From an uncultured Burkholderiales bacterium (lineage in GTDB: Bacteria > Pseudomonadota > Gammaproteobacteria > Burkholderiales > Burkholderiaceae_C): a stretch of 64,000 bases of DNA. How positions within the stretch are numbered: the stretch's first letter is position 1; each line of letters starts with the position of its first letter. Of this stretch, positions 14,217 through 30,880 are shown piece after piece. A program made the translations under genes and the position numbers. The stretch covers positions 124,001 through 188,000 of the forward strand of contig CAMFGY010000001.1 of assembly GCA_945952065.1 (NCBI GenBank), read 5' to 3'. The notes below the pieces were generated by a model. That model saw only the letters and a list, made by a program, of their open reading frames with translations, had not been told where the DNA came from and made no database searches.

Positions 14217-14236
14217 AAATGACATCAATGTCATTT
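14217..14236. promoter_or_regulatory. CusR-like palindrome upstream of the response regulator (box 1)
   Basis: A perfect 8-bp inverted repeat around four bases (AAATGACA-TCAA-TGTCATTT), 86 bases before the response-regulator start. It matches the E. coli CusR-box pattern AAATGACA-N4-TGTCATTT. It is flanked by a direct repeat TGCGATACGC at 14201 and 14266. Autoregulation of the two-component operon is inferred. Confidence 0.75.
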
Positions 14237-14321
14237 GCAGCCCGAAGAATGCCTCTCCAATCGCTTGCGATACGCCCCGCGCGCGCGTGCTGCGGCGCCC
14301 CCCTGTCAGCCCTGAATCACC

Positions 14322-15014
14322 GTGAACATTTTGTTGATTGAAGATGAGAGCCAGATTGCCGACTTCGTCTGCAGCGGATTGCGCAGCCGCGGCTTTGAGG
14401 TCCAGCATTGCGAGAATGGCCAACAGGGCTATGAGTTGGCCTTGAAGGGAGGCTTTGATGCCATCGTGCTCGATTTGATGCTGCCAGGCCGTGATGGGCT
14501 GGACGTCTTGAAGGGTTTGCGCGCCCAGGATGTACAGACGCCGGTGATCTTGCTGACCGCTCGCAATGAGCTCGGCGACCGCTTGACCGGCCTCGGCCTT
14601 GGCGCTGATGACTATTTGGCCAAACCGTTTTTCGTCGAAGAACTCGCGGCGCGAATCCAGGCTTTGTTGCGACGTCTTTCGGGCGAACGACAAAACCATT
14701 TGCAGGTGGGCCCGGTCTTGTTGGATCGCATCGAACGCAGCGCCAAGGTGTCGGGCCAATTGATTGAGCTGACGACCCGGGAGTTCAAGCTGCTGGAGTA
14801 CCTGATGCGCTCAGCGGGTCAGGTGTTCACCCGCGCACAAATTCTTGAACATGTGTGGGGCTATGACTTCGACCCCAGCACCAATGTGGTGGATGTATGC
14901 ATCAAGCGGATTCGCGCCAAACTGGCCTCCGGTGAGGTCGGTGACGCAGCGGCAACGCCCCAGTGCATTGAATCCGTGCGCGGCACCGGCTACCGGTTCA
15001 GGGTCGAGCCGTGA
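14322..15014 (+). CDS. OmpR-family response regulator (CusR/CopR-like)
   Basis: A 230-residue response regulator with an N-terminal receiver domain (acidic ED pair, phosphoacceptor Asp51 in LDLMLPG, Lys in KPF) and a C-terminal winged helix (TTREFKLLEYLM, then TNVVDVCIKRIRAKL and GTGYRF). The winged helix most resembles CusR/CopR/IrlR-type metal-response regulators. It begins at GTG 14322 and its stop overlaps the kinase start. The upstream palindrome fits a CusR-type operator, and copies of it occur before the YHYH and phosphoesterase operons, so this regulator probably controls the whole 14-27 kb block. The inducing signal cannot be read from the sequence. Confidence 0.93.
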   Translation: MNILLIEDESQIADFVCSGLRSRGFEVQHCENGQQGYELALKGGFDAIVLDLMLPGRDGLDVLKGLRAQDVQTPVILLTARNELGDRLTGLGLGADDYLAKPFFVEELAARIQALLRRLSGERQNHLQVGPVLLDRIERSAKVSGQLIELTTREFKLLEYLMRSAGQVFTRAQILEHVWGYDFDPSTNVVDVCIKRIRAKLASGEVGDAAATPQCIESVRGTGYRFRVEP

Positions 15015-16492
15015 AGCAGCAAGCGAGTGCCTCGCCCAACACGGCCTTCAGCTTTCGATTGCGATTGTTCCTTGGGGCGAGCGCGCTGACTGTGACGGTG
15101 CTCGCTGTGGTGTTGACCATGGCATGGCGCGAAGTGTTGGAGTATGAGGTCTCTCGCTTAGACGAACGCCTTTGCATGGAGGCCCGGCGCGTGGCCGAAC
15201 AAAGCTTGAGGGGTCAGGGAGAAGACCCGAATCGCCTGGCGGACGACATCGCGCAAAAACTGCATCTGGACAACGTCGCGCAGTTGCGCTTGCGGGTCGA
15301 GCCAACGCGGGCAGAAGCGACACCGGGGGCCGCAGCAGCGGGCGCTGCGCACGCGACCTCGTTCGAATGGCCTTCAACACCCAACTGGCAAGACGAAGCC
15401 GGTTCAACGGAGAACCGAGCGCGTCCGGGCCGAGCCGACGACCCGCGCGGGCGTTGCCAGCTGGCGGGCTCGTCGGTGGCCGCGCACGACTGGCGCATTG
15501 CGCGTGTGCAAACCCAGCAAGGCAAGGCTTGGTTGGCCGCGGACCTGGACGCCTTGAGAGCCGATGTGCAAGCGGCTTTGCAACGCGCTTTGTGGGGCGT
15601 GCTGCCACTTGCCTTGGGTTTGAGTGCCTTGAGTGCTTGGTTAATTGCGGCGATGACGATGCGCCCGCTGGTTCGCCTGCAAGAAGCCATGCGGCGCTTG
15701 AGTCCGCGCGATTGGGGGCAACGGCTTTCGAGTCATGGGCAAGACCGCGAATTCCAAGCGCTCATCTCGACCTACAACACGATGCTGGACCGGCTGGAAC
15801 GCAGCTTCAATCAGGCCTCGAGGTTTTCCTCTGATGCGGCGCATGAACTCCGCACCCCGCTGACGATTCTGCAAGGACGCCTGGAGCAAGCGATCCAGGC
15901 CTCGGACCGCCGCGCGGTGCAAGTCGAGTTGGGCAGCATCCTCGATGAAGTGGCCCGTCTATCCGGCATCACGCGCAAGCTCTTGATGTTGTCGCAGGCC
16001 GACGCCGGCAAGCTGGCGCTGCACCTGGGTGAACTGGATCTTTCCGAGCTCTTGCAAGACCTGCTGGCCGATGCGCAAATGATCGCGGGCGAAGGCCGAA
16101 AGATCGTCAGCCATATTGAGCCGGGCCTGCGCTTGCAAGCCGACGAAATTTTGCTGCGCCAAGCCCTCAACAATTTGCTGAGCAATGCCTTGCGCTATGG
16201 CCTGCCGCAAGGGCGACTGGAAATCATGGCCCGTCAAACCCCAAACAAAAACGGCCAAGGCTGGCTGGAACTCATCTTTGCGAATGACAGCGAGCCCCTG
16301 GGCGCCGAGCAGCGCGCCCACTTCTTTGAGCGCTTTTACCGCGCCGATGGCGCCCACAGTCGGCGCATCGATGGCACCGGTCTGGGACTGGGGCTGGCGC
16401 GGGAAATTGCACGAGCCCATGGCGGCGACTTGCAATTGCAAGCGCTGGAGCGCGAAGACTGGGTGGCTTTGCAATTGACGCTGCCCGCTTGA
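15011..16492 (+). CDS. Membrane sensor histidine kinase, partner of the CusR-like regulator
   Basis: A 493-residue sensor kinase starting at GTG 15011 (4-base overlap with the regulator). One membrane helix spans about residues 15-38 and a second about 195-220, bracketing a periplasmic domain of roughly 155 residues with a variable Ala/Arg-rich middle. HAMP-like and HisKA segments follow; the phosphorylated His is His278 in SSDAAHELRTPLT. The ATPase domain has N-box NNLLSNALRYG and G-box GTGLGLGLAREIARAHGG. The periplasmic part shows no His- or Met-rich metal site, so a metal signal suggested by the operator type is unproven. Confidence 0.93.
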   Translation: MKQQASASPNTAFSFRLRLFLGASALTVTVLAVVLTMAWREVLEYEVSRLDERLCMEARRVAEQSLRGQGEDPNRLADDIAQKLHLDNVAQLRLRVEPTRAEATPGAAAAGAAHATSFEWPSTPNWQDEAGSTENRARPGRADDPRGRCQLAGSSVAAHDWRIARVQTQQGKAWLAADLDALRADVQAALQRALWGVLPLALGLSALSAWLIAAMTMRPLVRLQEAMRRLSPRDWGQRLSSHGQDREFQALISTYNTMLDRLERSFNQASRFSSDAAHELRTPLTILQGRLEQAIQASDRRAVQVELGSILDEVARLSGITRKLLMLSQADAGKLALHLGELDLSELLQDLLADAQMIAGEGRKIVSHIEPGLRLQADEILLRQALNNLLSNALRYGLPQGRLEIMARQTPNKNGQGWLELIFANDSEPLGAEQRAHFFERFYRADGAHSRRIDGTGLGLGLAREIARAHGGDLQLQALEREDWVALQLTLPA

Positions 16493-16522
16493 ACTATCAG
16501 CGCAAGGCCTGGCGCGCCATCG

Positions 16523-16566
16523 AATGACGAAAGCGTCATTTTCCGGCCCGGGTGCAGCCCTAGTAT
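16523..16566 (+). promoter_or_regulatory. CusR-like palindrome plus probable -10 before the YHYH operon (box 2)
   Basis: A 7-bp perfect inverted repeat with four central bases (AATGACG-AAAG-CGTCATT, 16523-16540), the same ATGAC-N6-GTCAT spacing as box 1. It is followed by GCCCGGG (16546) and CCTAGTAT (16559), elements repeated in nearly the same order and spacing after box 4. The AGTAT segment could be the -10 of an activated promoter whose -35 region overlaps the box. Confidence 0.7.
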
Positions 16567-16618
16567 TCAAACCAGACGCCCTGCGGGGCCCGCTGCAACA
16601 CCACCAGGAGCCCGATCG

Positions 16619-18232
16619 ATGGACCAGCCTCCGCCCCCCAACTCAGCCTTGCCGGCGATATCTCCCCTTTGCCCGTCGCTGTTGGCCGCCATGGGCTTGA
16701 GCGCAGCGCTGCTCAGTGCATGCGGCGGCGGAGGCGCACAGGCGCCAGCGCCAGCACCAGCACCAGCACCCGCACCCGCACCCGCACCAGCACCCGCGCC
16801 GAGCGGCTTCAGCCTCAGCAGCACAATCGCAGCCGAAGGGGGCAGCATGCCCGCCGACTACAGTTGTGACGGCCCTGGATCGTCGCCGCCGCTGAGCTGG
16901 AGCAATCTGCCCACGGGCACGCAGTCCTTGGCCCTGTTGATGAGCACCTTGCCCGGCGACGGCAGCACCAAGTACAACTGGGTGCTCTACAACATTCCGC
17001 TCTCACGCAGTGCTTTGCCCAGAGACAGCTTTGGCATCGGCACCCTGGGAGTCGGCAGCGACGGGCCCATGAAGGCCTATCAGCCGCCTTGCTCGCAAGG
17101 CCCCGGCGCCAAAACCTACACCTTCACCCTGTTTGCTTTGTCGGCCGCGCCGATGCTGAGTGTCAGCCCGGTCACAGGGGCGGCGCTCGCGGCCGCTATG
17201 GCGCCGCTCACCCTCGGTACGGCCAGTCTGAATCTGAGCTACACACGCAGCAGCACATCGGCTGCGAATGGCGTCAACTGCGGGTATGTGCGCGCCTCGG
17301 TGACGGCATCAAACAGCGGGCTGGCAGGGGTCGCTTGCGACAACAGCTATGCCTACGTCAGCAGCGATGGCCTGGCCACGCATCGCATGATGGACGGCAT
17401 CACCGCCACCAATCTGCAGGTACCCACGGCACAAAACTTCTTCGGCAGCAATGCCTGGAAGATCCCTTTGAACCCGACCCTAGCCAGCAGCACCACCAGC
17501 GCCGTGGACGGGCCGATCGGCATTGCCATCAATGGGGTGCCCATCTTCAACCCCTGCAAACAGGGCGGCTGCCAAAACGGCGATACCAAGGCGCTGGGGG
17601 AACTGGACGTTTGCAATGGCCATGCCGGCCGGGCCGACGATTACCACTATCACGCAGCCCCCACCTGCCTGATGGCCGGCAAGCCCAGCAACTACTGGGA
17701 CACCCACCCACTGGGCTGGGCGCTCGATGGCTTTGCGATCTTCGGCTACAACAACCAAGACGGCACGGTGGCCACGCGCGACAGCATTTGCGGCGGCAAC
17801 AGCGCCGCCGTCAGCAATGCACCGCAGGGCTACAGCTACCATGTGAGCGATGTCTCGCCCTATGTCTTGAGCTGCTTCCGCGGCAGCCCCAGCCCCGACC
17901 TGGCGGGCCAAAGCGCCAAGTACTCACCGATGCGCCAGCCCCCGGTGACGCCGTTTGCGGTGTCGGCGATGACGCTGAGCACCGACAGCAGCGACGGCTA
18001 CCAAGTGCTGCAGTTCAGCAGCAACCGCAGTTTCAGCAGCACCGAGACCGGCAGCGACAGCTACAACAACCCTGCTGGCAGCTACAAGATCCGCTACAAA
18101 GCGCTCACCGGTGCGGCCCTGGAGGCACTGCTGGCCCAAAACGCCCACAAAGGCAAATCGGCCTGCTGGCACTTCCAGTTCAGCACCACGGCCGGCGTCA
18201 GCACACAGCCCGAGATCGACTACTGCCGATGA
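16619..18232 (+). CDS. PEBP-like / YHYH-domain lipoprotein
   Basis: A 537-residue secreted lipoprotein. The signal ends at Cys35 (lipobox ALLSAC), then comes an Ala-Pro repeat stalk of about 20 residues. Residues 62-190 resemble the PEBP/YbhB (Raf-kinase-inhibitor-like) fold: the GSSPPLSWSNLP and YNWVLYNIP motifs are typical. Residues about 240-450 form a YHYH domain, a poorly characterised bacterial family named for its motif; YHYH is at 342-345 in DDYHYHAAPTCL, and HPLGWALDGFAIFGY follows. The His/Asp cluster looks suited to metal binding, but no function is established. It leads an operon with two further secreted proteins, downstream of box 2. Confidence 0.88.
   Translation: MDQPPPPNSALPAISPLCPSLLAAMGLSAALLSACGGGGAQAPAPAPAPAPAPAPAPAPAPSGFSLSSTIAAEGGSMPADYSCDGPGSSPPLSWSNLPTGTQSLALLMSTLPGDGSTKYNWVLYNIPLSRSALPRDSFGIGTLGVGSDGPMKAYQPPCSQGPGAKTYTFTLFALSAAPMLSVSPVTGAALAAAMAPLTLGTASLNLSYTRSSTSAANGVNCGYVRASVTASNSGLAGVACDNSYAYVSSDGLATHRMMDGITATNLQVPTAQNFFGSNAWKIPLNPTLASSTTSAVDGPIGIAINGVPIFNPCKQGGCQNGDTKALGELDVCNGHAGRADDYHYHAAPTCLMAGKPSNYWDTHPLGWALDGFAIFGYNNQDGTVATRDSICGGNSAAVSNAPQGYSYHVSDVSPYVLSCFRGSPSPDLAGQSAKYSPMRQPPVTPFAVSAMTLSTDSSDGYQVLQFSSNRSFSSTETGSDSYNNPAGSYKIRYKALTGAALEALLAQNAHKGKSACWHFQFSTTAGVSTQPEIDYCR
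16743..16800 (+). repeat. Hexanucleotide repeat encoding an Ala-Pro stalk
   Basis: Imperfect tandem GC(C/A)CC(A/C)-type hexamers giving an (AP)n linker directly after the lipidated Cys of the YHYH protein. Unit length of six keeps reading frame on slippage, so stalk length could vary between strains. Confidence 0.85.
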
Positions 18233-18864
18233 GCTCACCCATGCCGAACACCCTCAAAGCACTTTGCGCAGCCGCCCTGCTGTCTGCGGCTGCGCTGCTG
18301 CCGCTGCAAGCCCATGAACTGCCGGCCAATCGCCTGACCCTGATACAGCGCGACGCCGGGCATCTGAGCCTGAACTTTGTGCTCGACTACCCGGCGGCCC
18401 TGCACCGCGCCTTGGCGGCAAAGCAAAGCGATGCCGAGTTCTTGGCGCTGAGCGCCAGCCTTCCCTTGCCCGAACTCGAGCTGATGCTGGCGAAGGCCCA
18501 AGCCCAGTTCCAAATGGAAACCCAGCTGCGGGTGGTGAGCGAAGCCAAGAATGCGGCACCCGCGAGAATCAGCTGGCGCTGGCCCAGCGCAGCTCGCGTT
18601 CAACAGCTGTTGCAGCAGCGTGTAATGGAAGGCTTGACCCGGAGCCCAGGCCTTGGCGGCCCCTCGGGGCGGCCCAGCCATGCCCATCCCGAAGTGCTGG
18701 AGATTCAAGCCGAGTGCGTGTGGTCAGCGGGCTTGAGGCCCGCGGCCACCGAGCTGCAGGTTCAGCTCCCTGCGGCTTTTGAGCGGGTGCTGCTGGTGTC
18801 CTACCGCCCGCGCCAGACTTGGCTGGAGCCAGGAGAATCAGCCAAGACCGTGATGATTCCCTGA
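18229..18864 (+). CDS. Secreted protein of unknown function
   Basis: A 211-residue protein with a clear Sec signal peptide (LKALCAAALLSAAALLPLQAHE), probably cleaved after QA. ATG 18229 overlaps the YHYH stop (ATGA); ATG 18241 is a possible alternative. The mature part has alternating hydrophobic strands, a long Gln/Ala-rich amphipathic helix around residues 75-100 and a single Cys (AECVW). I do not recognise a family. Its tight coupling to the YHYH gene and position under the CusR-like box suggest it acts with the YHYH protein in the periplasm or at the surface. Confidence 0.78.
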   Translation: MSSPMPNTLKALCAAALLSAAALLPLQAHELPANRLTLIQRDAGHLSLNFVLDYPAALHRALAAKQSDAEFLALSASLPLPELELMLAKAQAQFQMETQLRVVSEAKNAAPARISWRWPSAARVQQLLQQRVMEGLTRSPGLGGPSGRPSHAHPEVLEIQAECVWSAGLRPAATELQVQLPAAFERVLLVSYRPRQTWLEPGESAKTVMIP

Positions 18865-18888
18865 TTCCGCCGACACCCACGCCTCGCC

Positions 18889-20223
18889 ATGAACCCGCTG
18901 CTCAGATCACGTCGCCACTGGATGGTTCGCGCCTGCTTGATGGGCTTTGCAGGCACAGCGCTGCGGATGCGGCCCGCCTTTGCACAGGAGTCGCGGGAGC
19001 CCTCGCCCCGCCCACGCCCGCCCCGCCCTGGACGCGAACGCGCGCAACGCTATTCCTTGCAACAGGCCATGTCGGATCAAGCACAGCTGCATACGATTGC
19101 CTTCAGCGGCTTGGCGTTCTTGACTGGCGACTTCGCGGCCGACACCTTCTTGCCACCGGGCAAGGTGTCGGACTATTTTGGCTTTCAATACCTGCGCGAC
19201 ATCGATGCCGCTGAAGGCGGGCACAGCCCGGCTTTCTTGACCCGCATTGCCTTCAATGTTTTGAACATCCTGAGCGCCACACAGCGCGCCCAACTGGTGG
19301 CGCTGGCCCGCGAGCAGCAGGAACTGGTGCGGCGCTTTGCCTTGCTGCGCCTGCCTTTGATACGAGCTTTCCGGCTCAACCTCGAGCGGCGCTGGCCTCA
19401 AGGCAGCAAGGGGCTGCAACGAGAGGCTGTGCGCGCCCATTCGGCCGCCTTGTATGAACTTGACGGTCGCATTGCCTGGCGCCGCGCCGAAGTCATGGCG
19501 CAACTGCTGCGCAGCCTTGATGCCGCGCAGCAGGAGCGACTGCAACGATTGAAGTTCGGCGACTCGCGCAGCTGGCCCGAAGCTGCCGAACCGATCGAAC
19601 GGCGCAGCTGGCCACATGAGATTGATGTGGCCGTCATGAGCTGTGCCAGCGAGATGTTTGCCTGGCAGGGTGGCTCCATCGACGCCGACACCTATTTCTG
19701 CCCGGAACGGCATGCCATGTACTTTGGCGGCTTTGGCCTCAAGACGGCGCCAGCGCTGGGGCGGCAAGACTTCGCCATCAGCACGGCCTTGACCGGCGAT
19801 GCAGGCGCCAATTTCCTGGCTTTGCTGAACGAAGCCCAACGCGCCCATATCACGGCCCTGCCTGATATGCAGCGAGTCCAGTTGCAAGAGATTGCGCGAC
19901 TGCGGCAGCAGATCGCTACACAGCTGCGCGGATTTTTGCGCGCAGAAACGCCGCACCTGCAAGGCGTGCTGCTCAATTCACGCCGCTATGGCGAATTGGA
20001 CGGCGATTTGGCGTGGCTCTATGCGCAGGCCTTTGCCGCAGTTGCCCAAAGCTTGAGTGCCGCACAAGGCACATCGCTCCAACGCTTGCGTGACAGCGCC
20101 CCGCATGATGCGCGCGATCCCAAGGGGCCGTTTCTTTATGCAGCGCCTTTGGATGCCGCTGGCTTGGCAGAGGCCGACAAGGTCGCCGCGCTGTTTGGCC
20201 TGAGCACGCCGGGCACCCCTTGA
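18889..20223 (+). CDS. Duplicated exported protein with LTxxQ-like helices, possible Tat signal
   Basis: A 444-residue exported protein, 24 bases after the preceding gene and the third member of the YHYH operon. The N terminus has SRRHWMVRACLMGFAG, close to a twin-arginine signal (S-R-R-x-aromatic-hydrophobic), ending in AFAQ. The mature protein has two related halves: residues about 60-165 (TGDFAADTFLPPGKVSDYFG, then LSATQRAQL and a charged helix) and about 240-350 (SIDADTYFCPERHAMYFGGF, then LNEAQRAHI and a charged helix). The SATQRAQL/NEAQRAHI helices recall the LTxxQ motif of Spy/CpxP periplasmic proteins, but the pairing with an aromatic-Gly strand is new to me. Function unknown. Confidence 0.75.
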   Translation: MNPLLRSRRHWMVRACLMGFAGTALRMRPAFAQESREPSPRPRPPRPGRERAQRYSLQQAMSDQAQLHTIAFSGLAFLTGDFAADTFLPPGKVSDYFGFQYLRDIDAAEGGHSPAFLTRIAFNVLNILSATQRAQLVALAREQQELVRRFALLRLPLIRAFRLNLERRWPQGSKGLQREAVRAHSAALYELDGRIAWRRAEVMAQLLRSLDAAQQERLQRLKFGDSRSWPEAAEPIERRSWPHEIDVAVMSCASEMFAWQGGSIDADTYFCPERHAMYFGGFGLKTAPALGRQDFAISTALTGDAGANFLALLNEAQRAHITALPDMQRVQLQEIARLRQQIATQLRGFLRAETPHLQGVLLNSRRYGELDGDLAWLYAQAFAAVAQSLSAAQGTSLQRLRDSAPHDARDPKGPFLYAAPLDAAGLAEADKVAALFGLSTPGTP

Positions 20224-20270
20224 GCGCAGCGGCAGCAGTCGTTTCGCCTGCTGCGCGAGTTCGCCTGCTT

Positions 20271-20570
20271 TCAGGGCGCCGTCTTGGCCGGTTTTGCCGC
20301 CTTGGCTGCGGCTCGATCGGCTTGTAGCTGTTGCTTGTCTTGTTGCAGCCGTGCCTTGTCGCCCTGCACTGCGGCCTTGTTGCCCGCCGCCTTGTCTGCT
20401 TGGAGTTGGGCTTTGTCTGCGGCCAGCTTCTGCTTGTCTTGCTGAATGGCGGCATGAGCGCTGGCCTGTTTGCCGCCACCCGCCTGAACCGGCGCAGCCC
20501 ATCCCCATGCGAGCAAGGACACAGCCAGCGTGAGGGCGGACGGGGCATGGAAAGAAGGGGTCTTTTGCAT
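20271..20570 (-). CDS. Small exported coiled-coil protein (DKxxLxxDK repeats)
   Basis: A 99-residue protein read leftward. A GGAG site seven bases before ATG 20570 sets the start. Residues 1-30 are a Sec signal (LTLAVSLLAWGWAAPVQAGG); the rest is a highly charged helix with DKxxL units (DKQKLAADKAQLQADKAA and similar), predicted coiled coil. The end is 47 bases from the convergent 444-residue protein gene. It is divergent from the phosphoesterase operon, sharing the region that holds boxes 3 and 4, so co-regulation with that operon is likely. Specific role unknown. Confidence 0.75.
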   Translation of the reverse strand: MQKTPSFHAPSALTLAVSLLAWGWAAPVQAGGGKQASAHAAIQQDKQKLAADKAQLQADKAAGNKAAVQGDKARLQQDKQQLQADRAAAKAAKPAKTAP

Positions 20571-20684
20571 GTAGGTCTCCGGGGACGAATGAGAGTGAAA
20601 AGAGGTCGGGCAAGTCGGCAAGTGGGCAAGTGGGCGGCCCAAACTTGCGCCCTTGAAATTAGACCCAGAGCGCGCGCCGCCGGG

Positions 20685-20700
20685 ATGACATCTTTGTCAT
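20685..20700. promoter_or_regulatory. CusR-like palindrome (box 3)
   Basis: ATGACA-TCTT-TGTCAT, a perfect 6-bp inverted repeat, 115 bases upstream of the small coiled-coil gene and 43 bases from box 4 (about four helical turns). It probably serves the leftward gene. Confidence 0.68.
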
Positions 20701-20727
20701 TGCGGCTGGGCACATCAATGGGCACGG

Positions 20728-20770
20728 ATGACGAACTTGTCATTCGCCGCCGCCCGGGCCTGCCTAGCAT
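20728..20770 (+). promoter_or_regulatory. CusR-like palindrome plus probable -10 before the phosphoesterase operon (box 4)
   Basis: ATGAC-GAACTT-GTCAT at 20728-20743, followed by GCCCGGG (20752) and CCTAGCAT (20763). The same downstream elements follow box 2 at almost the same spacing (19 versus 20 bases from box end to CCTAG), which supports a shared promoter design. It lies 102 bases before the first phosphoesterase start. Confidence 0.68.
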
Positions 20771-20844
20771 GGCATGCAAGTACCGCACGCGCCGCCTGTC
20801 GGACCCTGCGCCGCCCCAGACCTGCAGCCCTTGTTTGAATCGCC

Positions 20845-22458
20845 ATGCCTGCTCCCATTGCTCCAGCCCCGCCAAGCTTGGCCTCATCGTGCTCGGTGAG
20901 CTTGCGTTACTCGGCGGCCAGCGCCTGCGTTTGTTTCGTCCTCTTGGGCATGGTCGCTTGTGGCGGCGGCGCAAGCAGCACAACAAACGCTGACCCTACG
21001 CCTCCCCCCGCTCCCGCTCCCGCTCCCGCTCCCGCTCCCGCACCTGCACCTGCACCTGCACCTGCACCTGCACCTGCACCTGCACCTGCACCAAGCCCGG
21101 TGCCCACGCCTGGCAGTAGCAGCGGCTTTCGCGGCAATTTGGTGCTGGGCGTTCCAACCCAAGACAGCATTCAAGCCAATGTGTTTGTTCCGGACCAAAG
21201 CGGGCAAGTTTGGTTGATCTACGGCAGCACTTCCGGCAACTACAGTGGCCAGACCCGTCCCCAAGCCATTCAAGCCGGCCAGCCCGTTCAAGTGGGCTTG
21301 ACGGGCTTGAGCCCGAATACCCGCTACTACTACCGCCTGTGCTTTCAGGAGGCTTCAAGCGGCGTGGCCGGTGCGGGCGAGGAATACAGCTTCACCACGG
21401 CAAGGCCAGCGGGCGTCAGCTTCAGCTTTGCGCTACAAGGCGACTCACACCCGGAGCGACTGAAGTCCCAATTCGATCCTGATCTGTACAGCCGCACCTT
21501 GTTGAGCGCCGCCGCCGAGCGCCCCGACTTCTACATCCTGATGGGCGACGACTTCAGCGTCGACACCTTGGACCCTGCCACCATTGATGCCGCCAAGGTG
21601 ACCGAACGCTACACCTTGCAGCGCCCCTTCCTGGGCCTGATCGGGCGCCAATCACCGGTCTTTCTGGTCAATGGCAACCATGAGCAGGCCGCCGCCTATT
21701 TGCTCGATGGCACACCCAACAATGTGGCCGTCTGGGCACAAACGGCGCGCAACCGCCACTATGCCCAGCCCGCGCCCGACGGGGCCTTCTATACAGGCAA
21801 CACCGTGCCGGTCACCCATATTGGCCTCTTGCGCAATTACTACGCCTGGACCTGGGGCGACGCCTTGTTCGTCGTGATCGATCCCTATTGGCACTCGCCC
21901 GTGGCCGTTGACAATGTGTTGGGCGGCAGCAGCAAACGCGCCAGCATGTGGGACCTGACCCACGGCGATGCGCAATACGCCTGGTTGAAGTCCACACTCG
22001 AAAACAGCCGCGCCAAATACAAATTCGTGTTCGCCCATCATGTGATGGGCACCGGGCGCGGCGGCATTGAATTGGCCAAGCTGTGGGAATGGGGCGGCCA
22101 AAATCAAAACGGCGCGGTGGAGTTCTTCAGCCAGCGCCCCAACTGGACCGAACCCATCCACCAATTGATGGCCCGCACCGGCGTCACCATCTTCTTCCAG
22201 GGCCACGACCATGTCTGGGTCCGACAACAACTCGATGGGGTGACCTACCAAACGCTGTCCGAGCCGGCCGACCCCAATTACGCGCTCTGGAACGCCGAGG
22301 CCTACAGCAGCGGCGACAAATTCCCCAGCAGTGGCTACACGCGGGTGAACGTCAGCCCGAAGGGCGTCAAGGTCGACTATGTGCGCAGCTATCTGCCCAA
22401 GGACGAGAACACCAGTCGCGTCCACGGCAGTACTGCCTTCAGCTACAGCTTGCCGTGA
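20845..22458 (+). CDS. Metallophosphoesterase lipoprotein, purple-acid-phosphatase-like (type A, copy 1)
   Basis: A 537-residue secreted lipoprotein (lipobox LGMVACGGG) with a long Ala-Pro stalk at about 52-85. Residues 90-190 resemble the fibronectin-like N domain of purple acid phosphatases (LTGLSPNTRYYYRL). The calcineurin-like catalytic core follows: D200-S-H202, GDDF with Asp235, N278-H279 in NGNHE, H398-H399 in FAHH and GHDH at 453-456. These bind a dinuclear metal centre in the family; the natural phosphoester is unknown. It opens a tandem set of four such genes (gap of 8 bases to the next) behind boxes 3/4. With the fourth copy it forms subtype A (GDDFSVDTL, NGNHEQA, GTGRGGIE). Confidence 0.92.
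   Translation: MPAPIAPAPPSLASSCSVSLRYSAASACVCFVLLGMVACGGGASSTTNADPTPPPAPAPAPAPAPAPAPAPAPAPAPAPAPAPSPVPTPGSSSGFRGNLVLGVPTQDSIQANVFVPDQSGQVWLIYGSTSGNYSGQTRPQAIQAGQPVQVGLTGLSPNTRYYYRLCFQEASSGVAGAGEEYSFTTARPAGVSFSFALQGDSHPERLKSQFDPDLYSRTLLSAAAERPDFYILMGDDFSVDTLDPATIDAAKVTERYTLQRPFLGLIGRQSPVFLVNGNHEQAAAYLLDGTPNNVAVWAQTARNRHYAQPAPDGAFYTGNTVPVTHIGLLRNYYAWTWGDALFVVIDPYWHSPVAVDNVLGGSSKRASMWDLTHGDAQYAWLKSTLENSRAKYKFVFAHHVMGTGRGGIELAKLWEWGGQNQNGAVEFFSQRPNWTEPIHQLMARTGVTIFFQGHDHVWVRQQLDGVTYQTLSEPADPNYALWNAEAYSSGDKFPSSGYTRVNVSPKGVKVDYVRSYLPKDENTSRVHGSTAFSYSLP
21007..21093 (+). repeat. Hexanucleotide repeats encoding an Ala-Pro stalk
   Basis: About five CTCCCG units followed by about nine CACCTG units, both reading Ala-Pro in the phosphoesterase frame. 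Two different hexamers side by side indicate two separate expansions. Confidence 0.9.
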
Positions 22459-22466
22459 GCACTTTC

Positions 22467-24026
<1,560 letters not shown>

Positions 24027-24080
24027 GCGCAGCGGCGCTTGATGCCTTCATACTGCGAGCCTGATGAGTGAAGATTGACT

Positions 24081-25520
24081 ATGAAGTGGCCTAGCGAATA
24101 TCGACTGCACCTGTTGGCATTGCTGATGGTGTTGGCCTGCACGGGCGCTGCCGCCGTTTTGGCCCAAACTGGCGGCGCGCCTGCGGCAGAGCGCAAGCCC
24201 CAGGGGCCCGCGCATGAATCGGCCCCGTTCACCGCTGAACCTCGCTTGGACCTCATCCTCGGTCGTGCCTCGCCTCAAAGCGTCACTTTCAATCTGCTGG
24301 CGCACAAGCAAGACGAAGCGGGCCTTGAATTGCGCTTGCTGCAAGACAGCGGCGCGGGCGCCTCAACGGTAAGGCGCGAGGGGCTGAGCTTGAAAAAAGG
24401 CCAGCCCAAGGAGTTGCATCTGCAGGGCTTGCAAGCCGATGCCGAATACCGCTATGAGCTGCGCCAGGCCGATCAGACCCTGAGCTCAGGGCGCCTGCAC
24501 ACGCAGCGCCTGCCAGGCGCCAAGTTCAGCTTCACGATCAGCGCTGACTCGCATCTGGATCAAAACACCGACCCCGCGCTGTATGAACGCACCTTGAAAG
24601 CCGTGCGCGCCGAACGCCCCGACTTCCACATCGACCTGGGCGACACCTTCATGGTCGACAAACATGCTGGGCGTGATGCGGCAGCGGCCCAATATCTGGC
24701 GCAGCGTCACTACTTCGGCATGCTGGGCTTGCCCCTTTATCTGGTGCTTGGCAACCATGATGGCGAAGACCGCAAGCTCTTGAAAGAGGGCCCGCAAAGC
24801 CTGGGCGTCTGGGCAAATCAGATGCGCAGGCAGCTCTTCCCCAACCCACAACCCGACGGCTTTTACAAAGGCAACCAAGTCCTGGACCCCTGGGTCGACG
24901 GTTTTTTGCAGGACTATTACGCCTGGACCTGGGGCGACGCGCAGTTCATCGTTTTGAACCCATATTGGCATGCGCCAGCCCGGCGCACCCAGGAACCCTG
25001 GCACTTGTCCTTGGGCGAGGCGCAATACCGATGGCTGCGCGATACGCTGCAAAGCAGCCAGGCTCGCTACAAATTCATCTTCGTTCACCAATTGATTGGG
25101 GGACGGGAGCGACAAGGGCGCGGCGGCGTGGAGGCCGCGCCTTTCGGTGAATGGGGCGGCCAGAACGCCGATGGCAGCGAAGGCTTGAGCCGCCATCGCC
25201 CGGCTTGGGAAGAGCCTGTGCATGCGCTGCTGCGTCGTACCGGCGTGAACGCTGTCTTCCACGGCCACGACCATGTATTCGCCGCGCAGCAACTCGAGGG
25301 CATTCACTACATCGAAGTGCCTCAACCCGCTCACCCCGGCGATGGCCACCAAAACTCTGCCGCCGAATACGGCTACCGGCAAGGGGTGATCCACGGTGAG
25401 AGCGGCTATCTGCGGGTGTCCGTCGACGCCCAAGGCGTGAGCCTGGACTATTTCGGCACAGCCCAAACCGCTAGGCCAAGACTGCTGCACCACCAGCAGT
25501 TGGCGAAGGAGCGGCCATGA
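24081..25520 (+). CDS. Secreted metallophosphoesterase (type B, copy 3)
   Basis: A 479-residue paralogue; start ATG 24081 (TTG 24075 is in frame just upstream). The signal peptide LLALLMVLACTGAAAVLAQ contains VLAC and could be lipidated, or be cut after VLA. There is no Ala-Pro stalk or GGGG linker, unlike copies 1 and 2. Catalytic motifs: ADSH, GDTF, GNHD, FVHQ and GHDH; like copy 2 the second His of the HH pair is missing. GGVEAAPFGEWGG groups it with subtype B. Its stop overlaps the next start (ATGA), so it is translated together with copy 4. Confidence 0.9.
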   Translation: MKWPSEYRLHLLALLMVLACTGAAAVLAQTGGAPAAERKPQGPAHESAPFTAEPRLDLILGRASPQSVTFNLLAHKQDEAGLELRLLQDSGAGASTVRREGLSLKKGQPKELHLQGLQADAEYRYELRQADQTLSSGRLHTQRLPGAKFSFTISADSHLDQNTDPALYERTLKAVRAERPDFHIDLGDTFMVDKHAGRDAAAAQYLAQRHYFGMLGLPLYLVLGNHDGEDRKLLKEGPQSLGVWANQMRRQLFPNPQPDGFYKGNQVLDPWVDGFLQDYYAWTWGDAQFIVLNPYWHAPARRTQEPWHLSLGEAQYRWLRDTLQSSQARYKFIFVHQLIGGRERQGRGGVEAAPFGEWGGQNADGSEGLSRHRPAWEEPVHALLRRTGVNAVFHGHDHVFAAQQLEGIHYIEVPQPAHPGDGHQNSAAEYGYRQGVIHGESGYLRVSVDAQGVSLDYFGTAQTARPRLLHHQQLAKERP

Positions 25521-27025
25521 GGCCCAGCCCTCGAGGCCATGGCAAGCAAGCCTTGCTGCTGGCCCTGCTCCTGCTTGCACCCGTATCGAGCGCCTACGCG
25601 GACAGACCACAAGAGCCCAGGGCCGAGGGCGCCGGGCGAGGCCGGGCGCGTCAGCCCTTGCAATTACCCGCCGATGTGGCCGAACTCAAGCAGCTCTCGG
25701 TGGTGCTTGGACGACCGACCCAGCACAGCGTGACGCTGAATCTGCTGGCAGCCCGGGCGAGCGAGGTGTATGTCGAATACGGGCTGGCCGACCAAGGCCC
25801 GCTGCATCGCAGCGCCAGCATCCGCTTGGCCGCTGGCGTGCCACAGGAGTTGCTCTTGGACCGCCTTGCGGCCAATCAAGCCTATGTCTATCGCTTGCAT
25901 CACCGCGACACGGAGGCCAGCCCGGCCACGCCCTTCGCCAAGCTGGCAAGCCAGCACTTCCACACCCAGCGGGCGCCGGGCAGCAGTTTTTCTTTTCAGC
26001 TGCAAGGCGACTCCCATCCGGAGCGGCCCCATCAGTTTGACGCGGGGCTTTACGCCCAAACCTTGCGGGCTGCGGCAGCGGACCGGCCCGATTTCTACCT
26101 GACCCTGGGCGATGATTTCAGCGTCGACACCTTGCCCAGTTGGAATCGCGAGAACGTCACCCAACGCTATTTGCTGCAACGGCCGTTTCTCGCCTTGGTG
26201 GGGCAAACGGCGCCGCTGTTTTTGGTCAACGGCAATCATGAGCAGGCGTCTCGGGCGAATTTAGATGGCAGTCCCGACAATGTGGCCGTGTGGGCGCAAA
26301 CCGCTCGCAACAAGCTGTTTTCACTGCCCGCACCGGATGCTTTTTACAGCGGCAACCCCGAACCAGTGCCTCATATCGGCTTGCTGCGCGACTACTACGC
26401 CTGGACCTGGGGCGATGCACTGTTTGTCGTGATCGACCCCTATTGGCACAGCGAACAGGCTGTGGACAACGAACTCGGCAAGCGCGAGAAGAAAGGCGCT
26501 CGTGATCTTTGGCAGATCAGCTTGGGCGAAGCCCAGTACCAGTGGCTGCGACAAACCTTGGAGGGCAGCCCCGCCCGCTTCAAATTTGTGTTTGCCCACC
26601 ATGTGTTGGGCACGGGCCGGGGAGGCATCGAGATGGCCGGGCTGTACGAATGGGGCGGGCGCAACAAGCGCGGTGACGATGAATTCAAAGCCCGGCGACC
26701 CAACTGGCCCTTGCCCATCCATGCCTTGATGGCCAAAACCGGTGTGACCATCTTCTTCCAAGGGCACGACCATGTGTTCGCGCGGCAGCAATTGGACGGC
26801 GTGACCTACCAAACCGTCCCAGAACCGGCCGACCCCAACGGTACGCTTTACTTTCCAGAAGCCTTCAAGAGCGGCGACATCCTTCCCAATTCCGGTCGCT
26901 TGAAAGTGCTGGTCGGCCCCGACAAGGTTCGCGTCGAGTATCTGCGCACTGCACCTTCAGCCACCGAAGGTGTGCCCTCGACGCTGAGCCCTGCTTTCAG
27001 CTACGAATTGAGTCGGCAGCCCTGA
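25517..27025 (+). CDS. Secreted metallophosphoesterase (type A, copy 4)
   Basis: A 502-residue paralogue with a normal Sec signal (LLLALLLLAPVSSAYA) and no lipobox or Ala-Pro stalk. It has a fibronectin-like N domain and the core motifs GDSH, GDDF, NGNHE, FAHH and GHDH. GDDFSVDTL, NNxVAVWAQTARN-like and GTGRGGIE segments make it a close relative of copy 1, giving a type order A-B-B-A along the operon. Two members (1, 2) are stalked lipoproteins and two (3, 4) look soluble or differently anchored, so each subtype exists in an anchored and an unstalked form. Last gene of the operon; oxyR follows 70 bases later. Confidence 0.91.
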   Translation: MRPSPRGHGKQALLLALLLLAPVSSAYADRPQEPRAEGAGRGRARQPLQLPADVAELKQLSVVLGRPTQHSVTLNLLAARASEVYVEYGLADQGPLHRSASIRLAAGVPQELLLDRLAANQAYVYRLHHRDTEASPATPFAKLASQHFHTQRAPGSSFSFQLQGDSHPERPHQFDAGLYAQTLRAAAADRPDFYLTLGDDFSVDTLPSWNRENVTQRYLLQRPFLALVGQTAPLFLVNGNHEQASRANLDGSPDNVAVWAQTARNKLFSLPAPDAFYSGNPEPVPHIGLLRDYYAWTWGDALFVVIDPYWHSEQAVDNELGKREKKGARDLWQISLGEAQYQWLRQTLEGSPARFKFVFAHHVLGTGRGGIEMAGLYEWGGRNKRGDDEFKARRPNWPLPIHALMAKTGVTIFFQGHDHVFARQQLDGVTYQTVPEPADPNGTLYFPEAFKSGDILPNSGRLKVLVGPDKVRVEYLRTAPSATEGVPSTLSPAFSYELSRQP

Positions 27026-27095: not shown

Positions 27096-28019
27096 ATGAC
27101 CCTGACCGAGCTACGCTATATCGTCGCCGCAGCCCGCGAACGGCATTTCGGCCGCGCTGCGGAGGCCTGCCATGTGTCGCAACCCACCTTGAGCGTGGCG
27201 ATCAAAAAGCTCGAAGAGGAGCTGGACCTGAAGATCTTCGAGCGTGGCGCCAATGAGATCAGCGTCACCGCCCTGGGCGAGGACATCGTGCGCCAAGCGC
27301 AGTCGGTGATTGAGCAAGCCAGCGCCATCAAAGAAATTGCCAAACGCGGCAAAGACCCGCTGGCCGGCCCGCTGCGCCTGGGGCTGATCTACACCATTGC
27401 GCCCTATCTGCTGCCGGCCCTGGTCAAGGGTGTGATCGAGCAGTACGCGCAAATGCCTTTGCTGCTGCAGGAGAACTTCACCGTCAAACTGCTGGAGATG
27501 CTGCGCACCGGCGAGCTGGACTGCGCCATCATGGCCGAGCCCTTCCCCGACAGCGGCCTGGCCGTGGCGCCCTTGTACGACGAAGACTTCATGATCGCCG
27601 TGCCCGCCAACCACCCCTTGGCCAGCCGCAGCGAAGTCAGCGCCGAAGAGCTCAAGCAAGAGACCATGTTGCTGCTGGGCGCCGGACACTGCTTCCGCGA
27701 CCAAGTGCTGGAGGTCTGCCCCGAGTTCGCCCGCTTCAGCAGCAGCAACACCGAAGGCATACGCAAGAGCTTTGAGGGCTCCTCGCTGGAAACCATCAAG
27801 CACATGGTCGCCTCGGGCATCGGCGTGACCGTGGTGCCCGCCTTGAGCGTGCCCAAAGAGGCGCAGCCGCATCTGCGCTTCATTCCCTTCAAAGGCACCG
27901 CGCCGAGCCGCCGGGTGGTGCTGGCTTGGCGCAAAACCTTCACCCGCTACGAGGCCATCGCGGCTTTGCGCAATGCGGTGTACGACTGCCCATTGGACGG
28001 GGTGAAGCGCCTGTCATGA
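27096..28019 (+). CDS. oxyR: Hydrogen peroxide-responsive LysR-family regulator OxyR
   Basis: A 307-residue OxyR. GGAGGAG six bases upstream fixes ATG 27096. The N-terminal helix-turn-helix (CHVSQPTLSVAIKKLEEEL) is the LysR type, and the redox pair falls at Cys199 and Cys208 in GHCFRDQVLEVC, the same numbers as in E. coli OxyR. Oxidation of this pair by peroxide activates transcription of genes such as katG and dps, both found 6-9 kb downstream. The gene overlaps the following histidine-kinase gene by four bases (ATGA), an unusual partner for a one-component sensor. Confidence 0.96.
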   Translation: MTLTELRYIVAAARERHFGRAAEACHVSQPTLSVAIKKLEEELDLKIFERGANEISVTALGEDIVRQAQSVIEQASAIKEIAKRGKDPLAGPLRLGLIYTIAPYLLPALVKGVIEQYAQMPLLLQENFTVKLLEMLRTGELDCAIMAEPFPDSGLAVAPLYDEDFMIAVPANHPLASRSEVSAEELKQETMLLLGAGHCFRDQVLEVCPEFARFSSSNTEGIRKSFEGSSLETIKHMVASGIGVTVVPALSVPKEAQPHLRFIPFKGTAPSRRVVLAWRKTFTRYEAIAALRNAVYDCPLDGVKRLS

Positions 28020-30880
28020 AGCAAGCCGCACCGGCGCTGTACGAATCGAACGCCGCGGTCGAAACCTTGGCGCAAGCCGCGACGGCGGGGGCCGATCCGG
28101 ATGAGCGCTTGATCGCCCAGGTGCATTGGGCCTGGTCTTTGCGCGAGCGCGACGGAAGCCAAGCTCTGCGCCTGATCGAACAGGCCGAGCAGCAACTCAG
28201 CAGCTGGCCGGCCGCGCGCCAGAGCCAGCCCCTCGGGCAGGTCCTGCGCTGGCGATTGCAACTCACCGGCATAGAGGTCCGCCGGCTGCGCAATGAAAGC
28301 ACCGCGCAAGACGAAGCCACGGCGCAAAGCCTCTTGCAGGCAGCACAAGACGCGAACGAGGGCGCTCTGGCTGTTGACGTCTATTGGGTGCTGGCCCACA
28401 TCGCCAACAGCCTGGGCAACACCCAGCAATGCTGTGCGTGCTTGGCTGCCGGCGCACAACTCGCTCAACGCTGCGGCGACCTCGAGCGCCAGCAACTGCT
28501 GGCCTGCACCCAAGCGCGCTTCGAAGGCGTGATCGACCGCTATGCCGCCGAGGCCCGCTGGGGTGAGCAGTTCAATATCGCTGAGGCCCACTTGTCTGCG
28601 CGCGTGGCGCCGCTGTTTGCGCTCTATGGCGCCTACCGTGCCATGCGGGCCAGCCGCTTGAATGAGGCCATTCAGCGCTTCACGGCCGTCATTGAGCCCC
28701 TGATGGCGCTGGGCTGCATCCGTGAAGCGATTGCCGCCCAGGCGAATCTGGGCAGTGTGTTCAACGACCTCGACGACCCCGAGGCCGCCCTGGAATGGAT
28801 GGAAAAAGCCCTGGCGCTGGCACGCCAACAGGCGTGGCCCTTCAGCATCGGCACCTGCCAGATGCAGCTGGGCGAGACCCTGCGCAAGCTGGGGCGGCTG
28901 GACCTGGCCCAACAACAGTTGGATGCGGCTTTGCAGTGCTTTTCTCGTTGGCCCGGCAGCCGCAACCACGCGGTCAGCCTCAATTACTTGGGCTGGCTGG
29001 CGCTCAATCAAAACCAGCCGCAGCGCGCCGCCGAGACCTTTGATGCCTTGCAGGCCTACGGCGGCTTTGCCGACCTTCAGCTCAGCGCCTTGCGGGGGCA
29101 GGGCCAAGCGCTTTTGCAGCTGGGCGACTTGAAGGCTGCGCAGGCCAAGGCCGAACAGGCCCTGGCCCTGGCACAGCAGCGCGGCGCTACCGAGGTGGTG
29201 GTGCAAGTCGGGCAATTGTTGGCGCGCATCGCCCAAAGCCGCAGCGTGCCCGACGCCGAGCAGGCCTTGCACTATTTGCAAGAAGCCCGTGAACAAGCGG
29301 CCACGCTCAGCGGCTTCAAAGGTGGCGGCGAGCTGCTGCAAGCGCTGGCACAGGCCTACGCGCAGGTGGGCCGTTATGTGGAAGCCTATGAGACCAGCGA
29401 AGCAGCGGCCCAGTCGCGTGCCCAATCGCTCAGCATGGAGGCCGCCAATCGACTGGCGGCCTTGCAGCTGCGCAATCTGAACGAGAGCGCCCGGGCTCAG
29501 GCCGAGCATTTGCAAGCCATGGCCGAGGCCGAGCGGCAAAAAGCGCTGCTGATGCAACGCAACAGCGACACGCTGGAACTGCTGGGCCGCATCGGCCAAG
29601 AGCTGACCCAGCAACTGGAGCTCGGCTCGATCTTCTCTTCCCTGGCCCGGCACATTCCTGCCTTGCTGGATGCGCGCGCTTTCGAGGTTTATTTGCTGGA
29701 TGCCGAGAAGCAGGCGCTGGACTCCATCTTTGGCCTGGAAGACGGCCAGCCCCTGCCGCCGGACCGCCTCGCGCTGAGCGACCCCAACTCCAACGCCGTG
29801 CGCTGCGCGCTGCAGCGCGCCGAGTTGTCCGTGCAGCTGGCGCCCGATGGCAGCGACCCCAGCCAAGTGCCCGGCACCATGCGCACCCTCAGTGCGCTGT
29901 TTGCGCCGCTGCTGATTGGCGAGCGCTTGCTGGGCGTGGTGACAGTGCAGTCGCCGCTGGCCCATGCTTACGGCGAACATGAGCGGATGATTTTTCGCAC
30001 CCTGAACGCCTATCTGGCCATCGCGCTGGACAACGCCCAAGCCTACAAGCGCTTGCAGCAAGCCCAGAACCAGCTGATTGCGCAAGAAAAGCTGGCCGCC
30101 TTGGGCGCCTTGGTGGCCGGCATTGCCCATGAGCTGAATACACCCCTGGGCAACAGCCTTTTGATGGCCAGCACCCTGGAGCAACGCACCGGCGAGGTCG
30201 AGCGGGCGGCGGCCGACAAGTCTTTGCGGCGCAGCGAGTTGGAGGGCTTTTTGGGCGAGGCCCGGGCCATGGCCCGGCTGATCATGCATGGTTTGGAGAC
30301 CGCCGCACGCCTGATCACCAGTTTCAAGCAAGTGGCGGTGGACCAAACCGCAGAGCAGCAGCGCGAGTTTGAGCTGGCCGGCATGTGCGAACAGTTGCTG
30401 GCAACGCTGCGCGCCGGCATCCGTAAACAAGGCCACCACATCGAGACCGACATCCCCGCCGGTCTGGTGATGGACAGCTACCCGGGGCCGCTGGGTCAGG
30501 TCATCAGCAATCTGGTCAACAACGCCATGCTGCATGGCTTTGGCGAGCGCAAAGGCGGCCAAATGCGGCTGAGCGCCCGGCTGCTGAGCGAGAGCCGGGT
30601 GGAGTTGCGCTTTCAAGACGATGGGGTGGGCATCAGCCCCAACCATGCCGCGCGCATCTTCGAGCCCTTTTTCACCACCAAATTCGGCCAAGGCGGCAGC
30701 GGCCTGGGCCTGTCCATCAGCCACAACATCGTCACGTCCTTGCTGGGCGGCAGCCTGAGCTTGGACCCCAAGCCTGGGCCGGGCACTTGCTTTGTGATGG
30801 TGTTGCCGCTGCAAGCGCCGACGGCCAAGACCGCATCGTCAGCGCAAGAATCGGGTGGGCAGGCGCAAGCGGGCTGCTGA
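28016..30880 (+). CDS. Soluble TPR-GAF sensor histidine kinase coupled to oxyR
   Basis: A 954-residue kinase without membrane helices or signal peptide. Residues about 20-490 are helical TPR-type repeats, 495-540 a coiled coil (NRLAALQLRNLNESARAQAE), 545-680 a GAF-like domain, then HisKA with His705 in AGIAHELNTPLGN and an ATPase domain (NLVNNAMLHGFG, DDGVGISP, GGSGLGLSISHNIV). The H-box and ATPase resemble those of the class that ends in a kinase and uses a separate regulator; no receiver domain is attached or adjacent. ATG 28016 overlaps the oxyR stop. Partner and signal are unknown. Confidence 0.9.
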   Translation: MKQAAPALYESNAAVETLAQAATAGADPDERLIAQVHWAWSLRERDGSQALRLIEQAEQQLSSWPAARQSQPLGQVLRWRLQLTGIEVRRLRNESTAQDEATAQSLLQAAQDANEGALAVDVYWVLAHIANSLGNTQQCCACLAAGAQLAQRCGDLERQQLLACTQARFEGVIDRYAAEARWGEQFNIAEAHLSARVAPLFALYGAYRAMRASRLNEAIQRFTAVIEPLMALGCIREAIAAQANLGSVFNDLDDPEAALEWMEKALALARQQAWPFSIGTCQMQLGETLRKLGRLDLAQQQLDAALQCFSRWPGSRNHAVSLNYLGWLALNQNQPQRAAETFDALQAYGGFADLQLSALRGQGQALLQLGDLKAAQAKAEQALALAQQRGATEVVVQVGQLLARIAQSRSVPDAEQALHYLQEAREQAATLSGFKGGGELLQALAQAYAQVGRYVEAYETSEAAAQSRAQSLSMEAANRLAALQLRNLNESARAQAEHLQAMAEAERQKALLMQRNSDTLELLGRIGQELTQQLELGSIFSSLARHIPALLDARAFEVYLLDAEKQALDSIFGLEDGQPLPPDRLALSDPNSNAVRCALQRAELSVQLAPDGSDPSQVPGTMRTLSALFAPLLIGERLLGVVTVQSPLAHAYGEHERMIFRTLNAYLAIALDNAQAYKRLQQAQNQLIAQEKLAALGALVAGIAHELNTPLGNSLLMASTLEQRTGEVERAAADKSLRRSELEGFLGEARAMARLIMHGLETAARLITSFKQVAVDQTAEQQREFELAGMCEQLLATLRAGIRKQGHHIETDIPAGLVMDSYPGPLGQVISNLVNNAMLHGFGERKGGQMRLSARLLSESRVELRFQDDGVGISPNHAARIFEPFFTTKFGQGGSGLGLSISHNIVTSLLGGSLSLDPKPGPGTCFVMVLPLQAPTAKTASSAQESGGQAQAGC

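Follow-up and report, generated by a model that had tools for sequence, protein, structure and literature searches.

A candidate two-component regulon with CusR-type boxes at a fixed promoter spacing links exported phosphoesterases, a YHYH protein and an unnamed helical protein family

The window analysed here, a 64,000-nucleotide stretch of an uncultured Burkholderiales genome (GCA_945952065.1, contig CAMFGY010000001.1, positions 124,001 to 188,000), carries a 10-gene cluster coding for a response regulator, a sensor kinase, a PEBP-YHYH fusion, two proteins referred to as p208 and p444, a divergently encoded small protein and four metallophosphoesterases, with CusR-type boxes ahead of its putative promoters. 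The OmpR/PhoB-type regulator (14322..15014, 230 aa, GTG start) has Response_reg and Trans_reg_C domains, and the histidine kinase (15011..16492, 493 aa) HAMP, HisKA and HATPase_c domains. The next gene (16619..18232, 537 aa) encodes a predicted exported fusion that passes the cut-offs of both PF01161 (PEBP, 60.6 bits against 24) and PF14240 (YHYH, 70.5 bits against a gathering score of 25). It is followed by p208 (18241..18864), a predicted exported protein with no Pfam match even at an E-value of 10, and by p444 (18889..20223), a predicted exported, all-helical member of an unnamed family with four to five LTxxQ-like motifs. All these genes lie on the plus strand, as do the four phosphoesterase genes (20845..22458, 22467..24026, 24081..25520 and 25517..27025), whose products score 29.2, 29.0, 40.9 and 28.3 bits against PF00149 (cut-off 21.5). 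On the minus strand, 20271..20570 encodes a small, Lys/Gln/Ala-rich, coiled-coil-like and predicted exported protein of 99 aa, called from its reading frame and relatives; neither this protein nor the window p444 matched a Pfam family. The fusion and the first two phosphoesterases appear to carry lipoboxes, the latter two also an Ala-Pro linker; signal peptides and lipoboxes were assigned by reading the sequences rather than with a prediction tool. Pfam and NCBIfam scans recognised no metal transporter, oxidase or metallochaperone among the clustered targets, and no phosphate uptake gene in the cluster.

The window contains four exact copies of the palindrome ATGAC-N6-GTCAT, well beyond chance (0.02 copies expected from 100 shuffles, none of which reached four), and one further site, at 61847, differs by a single mismatch. 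The original prediction had reported these four copies and no others, with the first two coordinates off by 2 and 1. Box 1 (ATGACATCAATGTCAT, 14219..14234, plus strand) precedes a −10-like TCCAAT (14256-14261) and fits the promoter of the regulator and kinase genes, which would imply autoregulation. Box 2 (ATGACGAAAGCGTCAT, 16524..16539, plus strand), with TAGTAT at 16561-16566, fits the promoter of the PEBP-YHYH operon. Box 3 (20685..20700, minus strand), read leftward as ATGACAAAGATGTCAT, is followed by TCTAAT at 20663-20658, and box 4 (ATGACGAACTTGTCAT, 20728..20743, plus strand) by TAGCAT at 20765-20770. Each of the four proposed units can thus be assigned one box, with box 3 better suited to the coiled-coil gene than to the phosphoesterase operon. 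Given a hexamer 22 bases from the box, the close pair at 20685 and 20728 therefore amounts to one box per divergent promoter, the former acting leftward and the latter rightward.

This spacing recurs among the cluster promoters. Of 27 lined up from eight genomes of the family, 23 carry a −10-like hexamer (TANNNT or NNNAAT) beginning exactly 22 bases beyond the box, against 0-2 such hexamers at each other offset from 5 to 47; two further Inhella gelatinilytica boxes were excluded from the count (L027:11393, TAGATT at +22 by hand, and L027:13875, no hexamer on either side; L and G denote our locus and genome handles). All 14 YHYH and phosphoesterase promoters fit, 11 of them as TAG[CT]AT, as do all five small-gene promoters, the assignment of L117 being uncertain, since its box is CTGAC. 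Of the downstream elements that had been proposed as shared, TAG(T/C)AT is thus kept in 11 of 14 promoters, while GCCCGGG is unconserved in relatives and was dropped. As the hexamer definition had been picked after the promoters were seen, it was tested on boxes that had played no part in this choice. Among five genomes (G000, G149, G111 and two of Inhella), the hexamer stands at +22 on one side of 15 of the 17 exact boxes inside the cluster (one of the 15 counted by hand), and on either side of only 1 of the 27 outside it. The composite box-N22-TAGNAT gives two sites in each of these five genomes, all 10 within the cluster, and its reversed-pattern control gives 0. Among 399 family genomes, seven have a tighter composite pattern; six of these carry the cluster, and the seventh (G048) shows no gene of the cluster within the 8 kb viewed. 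This pattern misses G096 and G045, both carriers of the core genes. A −10 hexamer usually occupies −12 to −7, and the boxes would therefore be centred at −41.5 from the inferred start sites, a position typical of a class II activator.

The proposed genome-wide scan, once run, returned 12 exact boxes in 5.27 Mb (74 contigs), eight of them beyond the window; a mechanical listing of open frames places each of the eight inside a frame of 199-645 aa. The frame enclosing the box at C2:22698 looks antisense, and by reading this box is flanked by two genes of a copper locus, in which a multicopper oxidase-like gene and a P-type ATPase accompany a CopR-like pair. Scattering of boxes without relation to these genes had been named as evidence against the regulon, and in a weak sense it is seen (27 of the 44 exact boxes in the five genomes lie outside the cluster), but only 1 of those 27 has the promoter spacing. 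The corresponding region of the window's genome (L019:6146-19861, contig C2, 14000-33999) reads as a copper and heavy-metal island, with CzcE-like genes beside those just listed and one exact box at about L019:8699. In G149, a perfect box (ATGACAAATTTGTCAT, L271:5136) lies between heavy-metal P-type ATPase-like and CzcE-like genes. At both of these loci, the −10-like hexamer stands at +34 rather than +22 (two cases, counted by hand), and spacing may therefore separate a metal regulon from that of YHYH and p444.

The cluster recurs in some relatives. With p444 as the query, matches came from 3 of the 200 genomes searched in the family and from 4 of 399 in the order, the window's own being counted in both. 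G149 has an identical gene order and a box at each of the four positions, one of them with GTGAC; G111, whose contig ends after the first phosphoesterase, shows three boxes, again one with GTGAC; and Inhella proteolytica (L026) and I. gelatinilytica (L027), placed by NCBI in the Sphaerotilaceae, also carry the cluster. G021 combines the regulator, kinase, YHYH, p208 and two phosphoesterases but lacks p444; in G096, YHYH and p208 accompany the regulator, kinase and box, with no phosphoesterase or p444 within the 20 kb seen; and G045, whose YHYH is more distant and whose p208 match, near a contig end, is weak, also has the regulator, kinase and box. By reading, an exported intradiol-dioxygenase-like gene follows the p208-like stretch of G045 (L149:11081-11674). 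Overall, regulator, kinase, box and YHYH co-occur in eight family genomes, six with phosphoesterases and five with p444, and p208 follows YHYH in all eight (weakly in G045). The predicted link between YHYH and the phosphoesterases thus stands in six of eight genomes, with G096 lacking the latter in the region seen and G045 ending early. Same-genus genomes showed no sign of the cluster where tested (no p444 in G013 and G144, no composite promoter in five, no YHYH in three), and in G789 a homologue (67%) of the left neighbour adjoins OxyR with no cluster between; in 10 other relatives, the left gene was not found in the available flank. The GC content of the cluster (0.630) is unremarkable beside that of the window (0.643) and gives no hint of gain. 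The OxyR gene at 27096 was rejected as a member, with matches in 12 of 12 searched same-genus genomes (own included) and none inside relatives' clusters. It is followed at 28017-30880 by a large sensor-kinase-like gene, and in part of the genus OxyR is likewise followed by proteins of weak similarity to it (33-44%).

YHYH itself occurs in 24 of 250 family genomes. Outside the cluster, no such regulator was found within 20 kb of YHYH in G606, G064, G113 or at the second G149 copy, and the G119 locus has only distant kinase and regulator matches. The remaining family loci were viewed with flanks of at most 1.5 kb, one of them with a 32% kinase match, and G631 has PEBP-YHYH, p208 and a phosphoesterase start, with no box, on a 3.8 kb contig. 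An alignment of 15 YHYH sequences (A3) shows invariant D106, H111, H119, H121 and D146; the structure model was too poor to use (pLDDT 57.3). A PDB sequence search with PEBP-YHYH matched only PEBP chains, in the PEBP part, and one with phosphoesterase 1 only the Ala/Pro linker region. The ligand motifs D-x-H, GD, GNH, H and GHxH are kept in all four phosphoesterases and in 63 of the 70 open reading frames (ORFs) of the phosphoesterase cluster.

For p444, we found 275 relatives, kept 80 and collected 86 loci with p444 as the query, so that p444 is present in them by construction and YHYH systems without p444 outside the family are missed. ORFs in the locus maps were retained by homology and an overlap rule that misses short genes (p208 was found by tblastn instead); labels for extracytoplasmic function (ECF) sigma factors, sulfatases and lone PEBP proteins come from reading cluster representatives rather than from a family search; and the set includes near-duplicates (L068/L070) and pairs from single assemblies (L094/L097, L100/L101). 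Phosphoesterases occur in 41 of these loci across phyla, sulfatase-like genes in seven and YHYH in few. Across phyla, phosphoesterases rather than YHYH are thus the frequent neighbours of p444, and the wide link, in a search seeded by p444, runs through p444 and the phosphoesterases, with the YHYH-phosphoesterase link apparently a family-level one.

In these distant loci, the box follows the regulator and not p444. Regulators 51-67% identical to that of the window occur, outside the close group, at 11 loci including Gallionellaceae, Rhodocyclaceae, Kiritimatiellales, Opitutales and a delta-proteobacterial bin. A relaxed 6-4-6 box lies somewhere in all 11 (15 boxes against 0.6 in shuffles, which here and for the p444 motifs below keep single-letter content only), as compared with 3 of the 16 where the regulator is a different one (3 boxes against 1.4); this comparison leaves out the kinase-only L048, L069, L094 and L097, two of which have one relaxed box each. 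Over the whole collection, the 36 loci with a kinase or regulator hold 40 boxes (2.0 in shuffles) and the 50 without hold 5 (3.6 in shuffles). Together with the co-occurrence in eight family genomes, this pattern supports the earlier proposal of a single regulon with the adjacent regulator as its probable natural binder. The box itself, ATKACR-N4-YGTMAT, has the 6-4-6 form of Escherichia coli CusR/HprR and Cupriavidus AgrR, which bears out its proposed CusR type.

In an alignment of the window p444 with 40 of 60 references, filtered to 400-570 aa (A2), the glutamine of the LTxxQ-like motifs at 132, 214, 317 and 393 is invariant (41/41 each), and L[TSDN]xxQ occurs 3.5 times per protein against 0.46 in shuffles. 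The CpxP model matches 11 of the 41 members at E ≤0.1. A PDB sequence search returned no match, and comparison of a p444 model with Foldseek and VIA-align yielded no convincing fold match. I. gelatinilytica has a second p444 paralogue (L027:11989-13185, 42%) with its own upstream box at L027:11393 and TAGATT at +22. A box lies near both p444 and the regulator in L025, L029, L035 and L037, and near p444 in L055. In L054, L055 and L058 (Kiritimatiellales/Pontiella and Desulfocapsa), p444 is followed by genes read as TolC-like and membrane-fusion/ABC-type export components, near a two-component pair, neighbours that hint at an export role. In two Holophagaceae bins (L066, L105), p444 adjoins a small protein read as EF-hand-like. 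It is conceivable, at somewhat less than even odds, that p444 represents a new exported family of unmatched fold anchoring an undescribed cross-phylum envelope system, in which p444, exported phosphoesterases, PEBP and at times sulfatases would be wired to CusR-like pairs or ECF sigma factors, with a CpxP-like sensor or chaperone coupled to surface ester hydrolysis.

We therefore interpret the cluster as a patchily distributed, self-contained two-component regulon that takes in an envelope signal and puts out exported hydrolases, a reading to which we give a probability of roughly 60%. At the level of sequence, the regulon itself is well supported by the boxes, their spacing and its restriction to the cluster, by co-conservation and by domain content. 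From these we infer a mechanism in which the membrane kinase would sense an envelope signal and phosphorylate the regulator at 14322, a dimer of which would bind the four 6-4-6 palindromes, each centred at −41.5, and activate four promoters in class II fashion: its own, that of the PEBP-YHYH/p208/p444 operon, that of the divergent small gene and that of the four-gene phosphoesterase operon. The signal might be thiol redox state or a metal perceived through the only two cysteines of the kinase, C55 and C149, which lie in the part taken to be periplasmic; both are present in seven of 33 aligned kinases, neither at those places in the other 26, and they could form a disulfide switch or a metal bridge. 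The output would consist of metal-dependent exported hydrolases, namely the four phosphoesterases and YHYH, the latter a Zn hydrolase by published prediction (PMC7824862), along with p444, in our view a helical protein of the periplasm that resembles Spy/CpxP and would serve as a chaperone or as a feedback partner of the kinase.

Several observations weigh against this interpretation. The regulator promoters fit the +22 spacing in just four of eight cases (missed in L017, L018, L148 and L149), and the hexamer was, as noted, defined after inspection. The best-scoring curated models for the regulator and kinase are heavy-metal ones, and these genomes also have the same box core next to other CopR-like pairs, in heavy-metal loci, so that cross-regulation is possible. 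As for p444, LTXXQ (PF07813) has no match in the window protein and reaches 19.8 bits against a cut-off of 24.3 in the L027 member (two members scanned), and a p444-CpxP profile comparison gives a probability of only 48. In addition, p444 is missing from the cluster in G021, G096 and G045, which belong to the family search where it matched only 3 of 200 genomes, and it is thus not essential to this regulator. Finally, conservation of the operons without the regulator, which the original prediction had counted as grounds for abandoning it, is seen in part: 18 of the 41 loci with both p444 and phosphoesterases show neither two-component nor ECF genes in view.

Three alternatives were considered. 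In a true copper or silver regulon, the kinase would bind Cu/Ag, the exported proteins would sequester or detoxify the metal and the phosphoesterases would merely need it. The regulator does resemble the heavy-metal type in having a receiver and an OmpR-type DNA-binding domain and, apparently, a 6-4-6 palindrome at its own promoter and its targets, but no metal resistance gene was recognised among those clustered targets. Its best NCBIfam model is the heavy-metal TIGR01387, as TIGR01386 (heavy-metal sensor kinase) is for the kinase, but both scores fall short of the cut-offs (217.2 against 279.2 bits and 230.7 against 292.55), and on TIGR01387 the window regulator ranks fourth in its own genome, behind three others of which two exceed the cut-off. 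Likewise, the conserved His and Asp of YHYH and the CusR/AgrR-like box, which also stands upstream of CzcE-like genes (by reading) in the heavy-metal loci of G000 and G149, would suit a metal role, but the spacing at those two loci is +34, the kinase sensor region (37-190) holds 3 His and 2 Met, and the targets include no recognised transporter, oxidase or metallochaperone. Since the scores lie below cut-off, higher-scoring regulators exist elsewhere and no metal transporter was recognised, we regard the system as CusR/AgrR-like in its working, yet not to be filed as metal resistance; the copper or silver role considered earlier is not favoured, and we hold it unlikely.

Nutrient scavenging, with a kinase that responds to the supply of phosphate or sulfate esters and with exported phosphoesterases (in some phyla sulfatases) that free phosphate or sulfate, would draw on the intact ligand motifs of the four phosphoesterases and their retention across the phosphoesterase cluster, and on the sulfatase-like genes read in 7 of 86 loci. 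This seems to us slightly more doubtful still, as the cluster has no recognised phosphate uptake gene, the regulator scores lower on the PhoB model (193 bits, cut-off 296.2), p444 and PEBP fit simple scavenging poorly and the box is of the CusR/AgrR type. We consider it very improbable that another CopR-like regulator of the genome mainly binds these boxes in vivo, leaving the local pair incidental. Regulators of the CusR class can share boxes in E. coli and Pseudomonas, according to the available parts of PMC9302797 and PMC11195947, and the copper locus has a box with the same core; but the box tracks the orthologous regulator in 11 of 11 loci against 3 of 16, and the promoter spacing is unlike that of the two metal loci. 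The envelope-responsive regulon controlled by the adjacent pair remains the reading that we prefer.

On this reading, YHYH, p208 and p444 come under a defined promoter system and become accessible to genetics; a search of one open library found no tested function for any of the three and no report of YHYH together with a metallophosphoesterase, and papers there that combine two or more of phosphoesterase, PEBP, heavy-metal regulator and LTXXQ are unrelated by their listing. With four promoters, one box class and one fixed spacing in a single locus, the regulatory logic is directly testable. The data also suggest that CusR-type boxes are used beyond metal resistance, and the box alone is therefore unsafe for calling a gene metal-responsive. 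That p444 and phosphoesterases are so often found together, in several phyla, suggests a surface function that is common yet has no name.

Among known systems, p444 invites comparison with E. coli CpxP, an LTxxQ-motif helical exported protein that operates with CpxRA. Like it, p444 is helical, predicted to be exported and rich in LTxxQ-like motifs, and in L025, L029, L035, L037 and L055 its gene is divergent from that of the regulator; unlike it, p444 is far longer, its window member has no Pfam LTXXQ match and its predicted fold finds no convincing counterpart. The statement that YHYH proteins have no assigned function is partly out of date, the domain having been predicted as a Zn hydrolase in phage tail proteins (PMC7824862, as far as its available part goes). 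The conserved His and Asp are common to both settings, but here the domain is fused to PEBP, predicted to be exported and placed behind a two-component-type promoter. AgrR of Cupriavidus metallidurans, in the accessible portion of PMC7380067, uses the 6-4-6 repeat ATKACA-N4-TGTMAT, is autoregulated and is a proposed type II activator of promoters with a fair −10 and a poor or no −35. The inverted repeat is paralleled here, as the proposed mode of activation and the autoregulation would be; AgrR is tied to silver resistance, whereas the window cluster has no recognised metal-resistance gene. E. coli CusR, by the part of PMC11195947 at hand, prefers AAAATGACAAnnTTGTCATTTT, with an ATGACA-N4-TGTCAT core, and has a very restricted regulon, and its box shared with HprR is given as CATTACAAAATTGTAATG in what is available of PMC9302797. 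The targets of these two regulators are Cus efflux or MsrPQ repair rather than phosphoesterases, YHYH or p444, but the core box is the same in kind, and that of L092 equals the HprR/CusR box core (PMC9302797).

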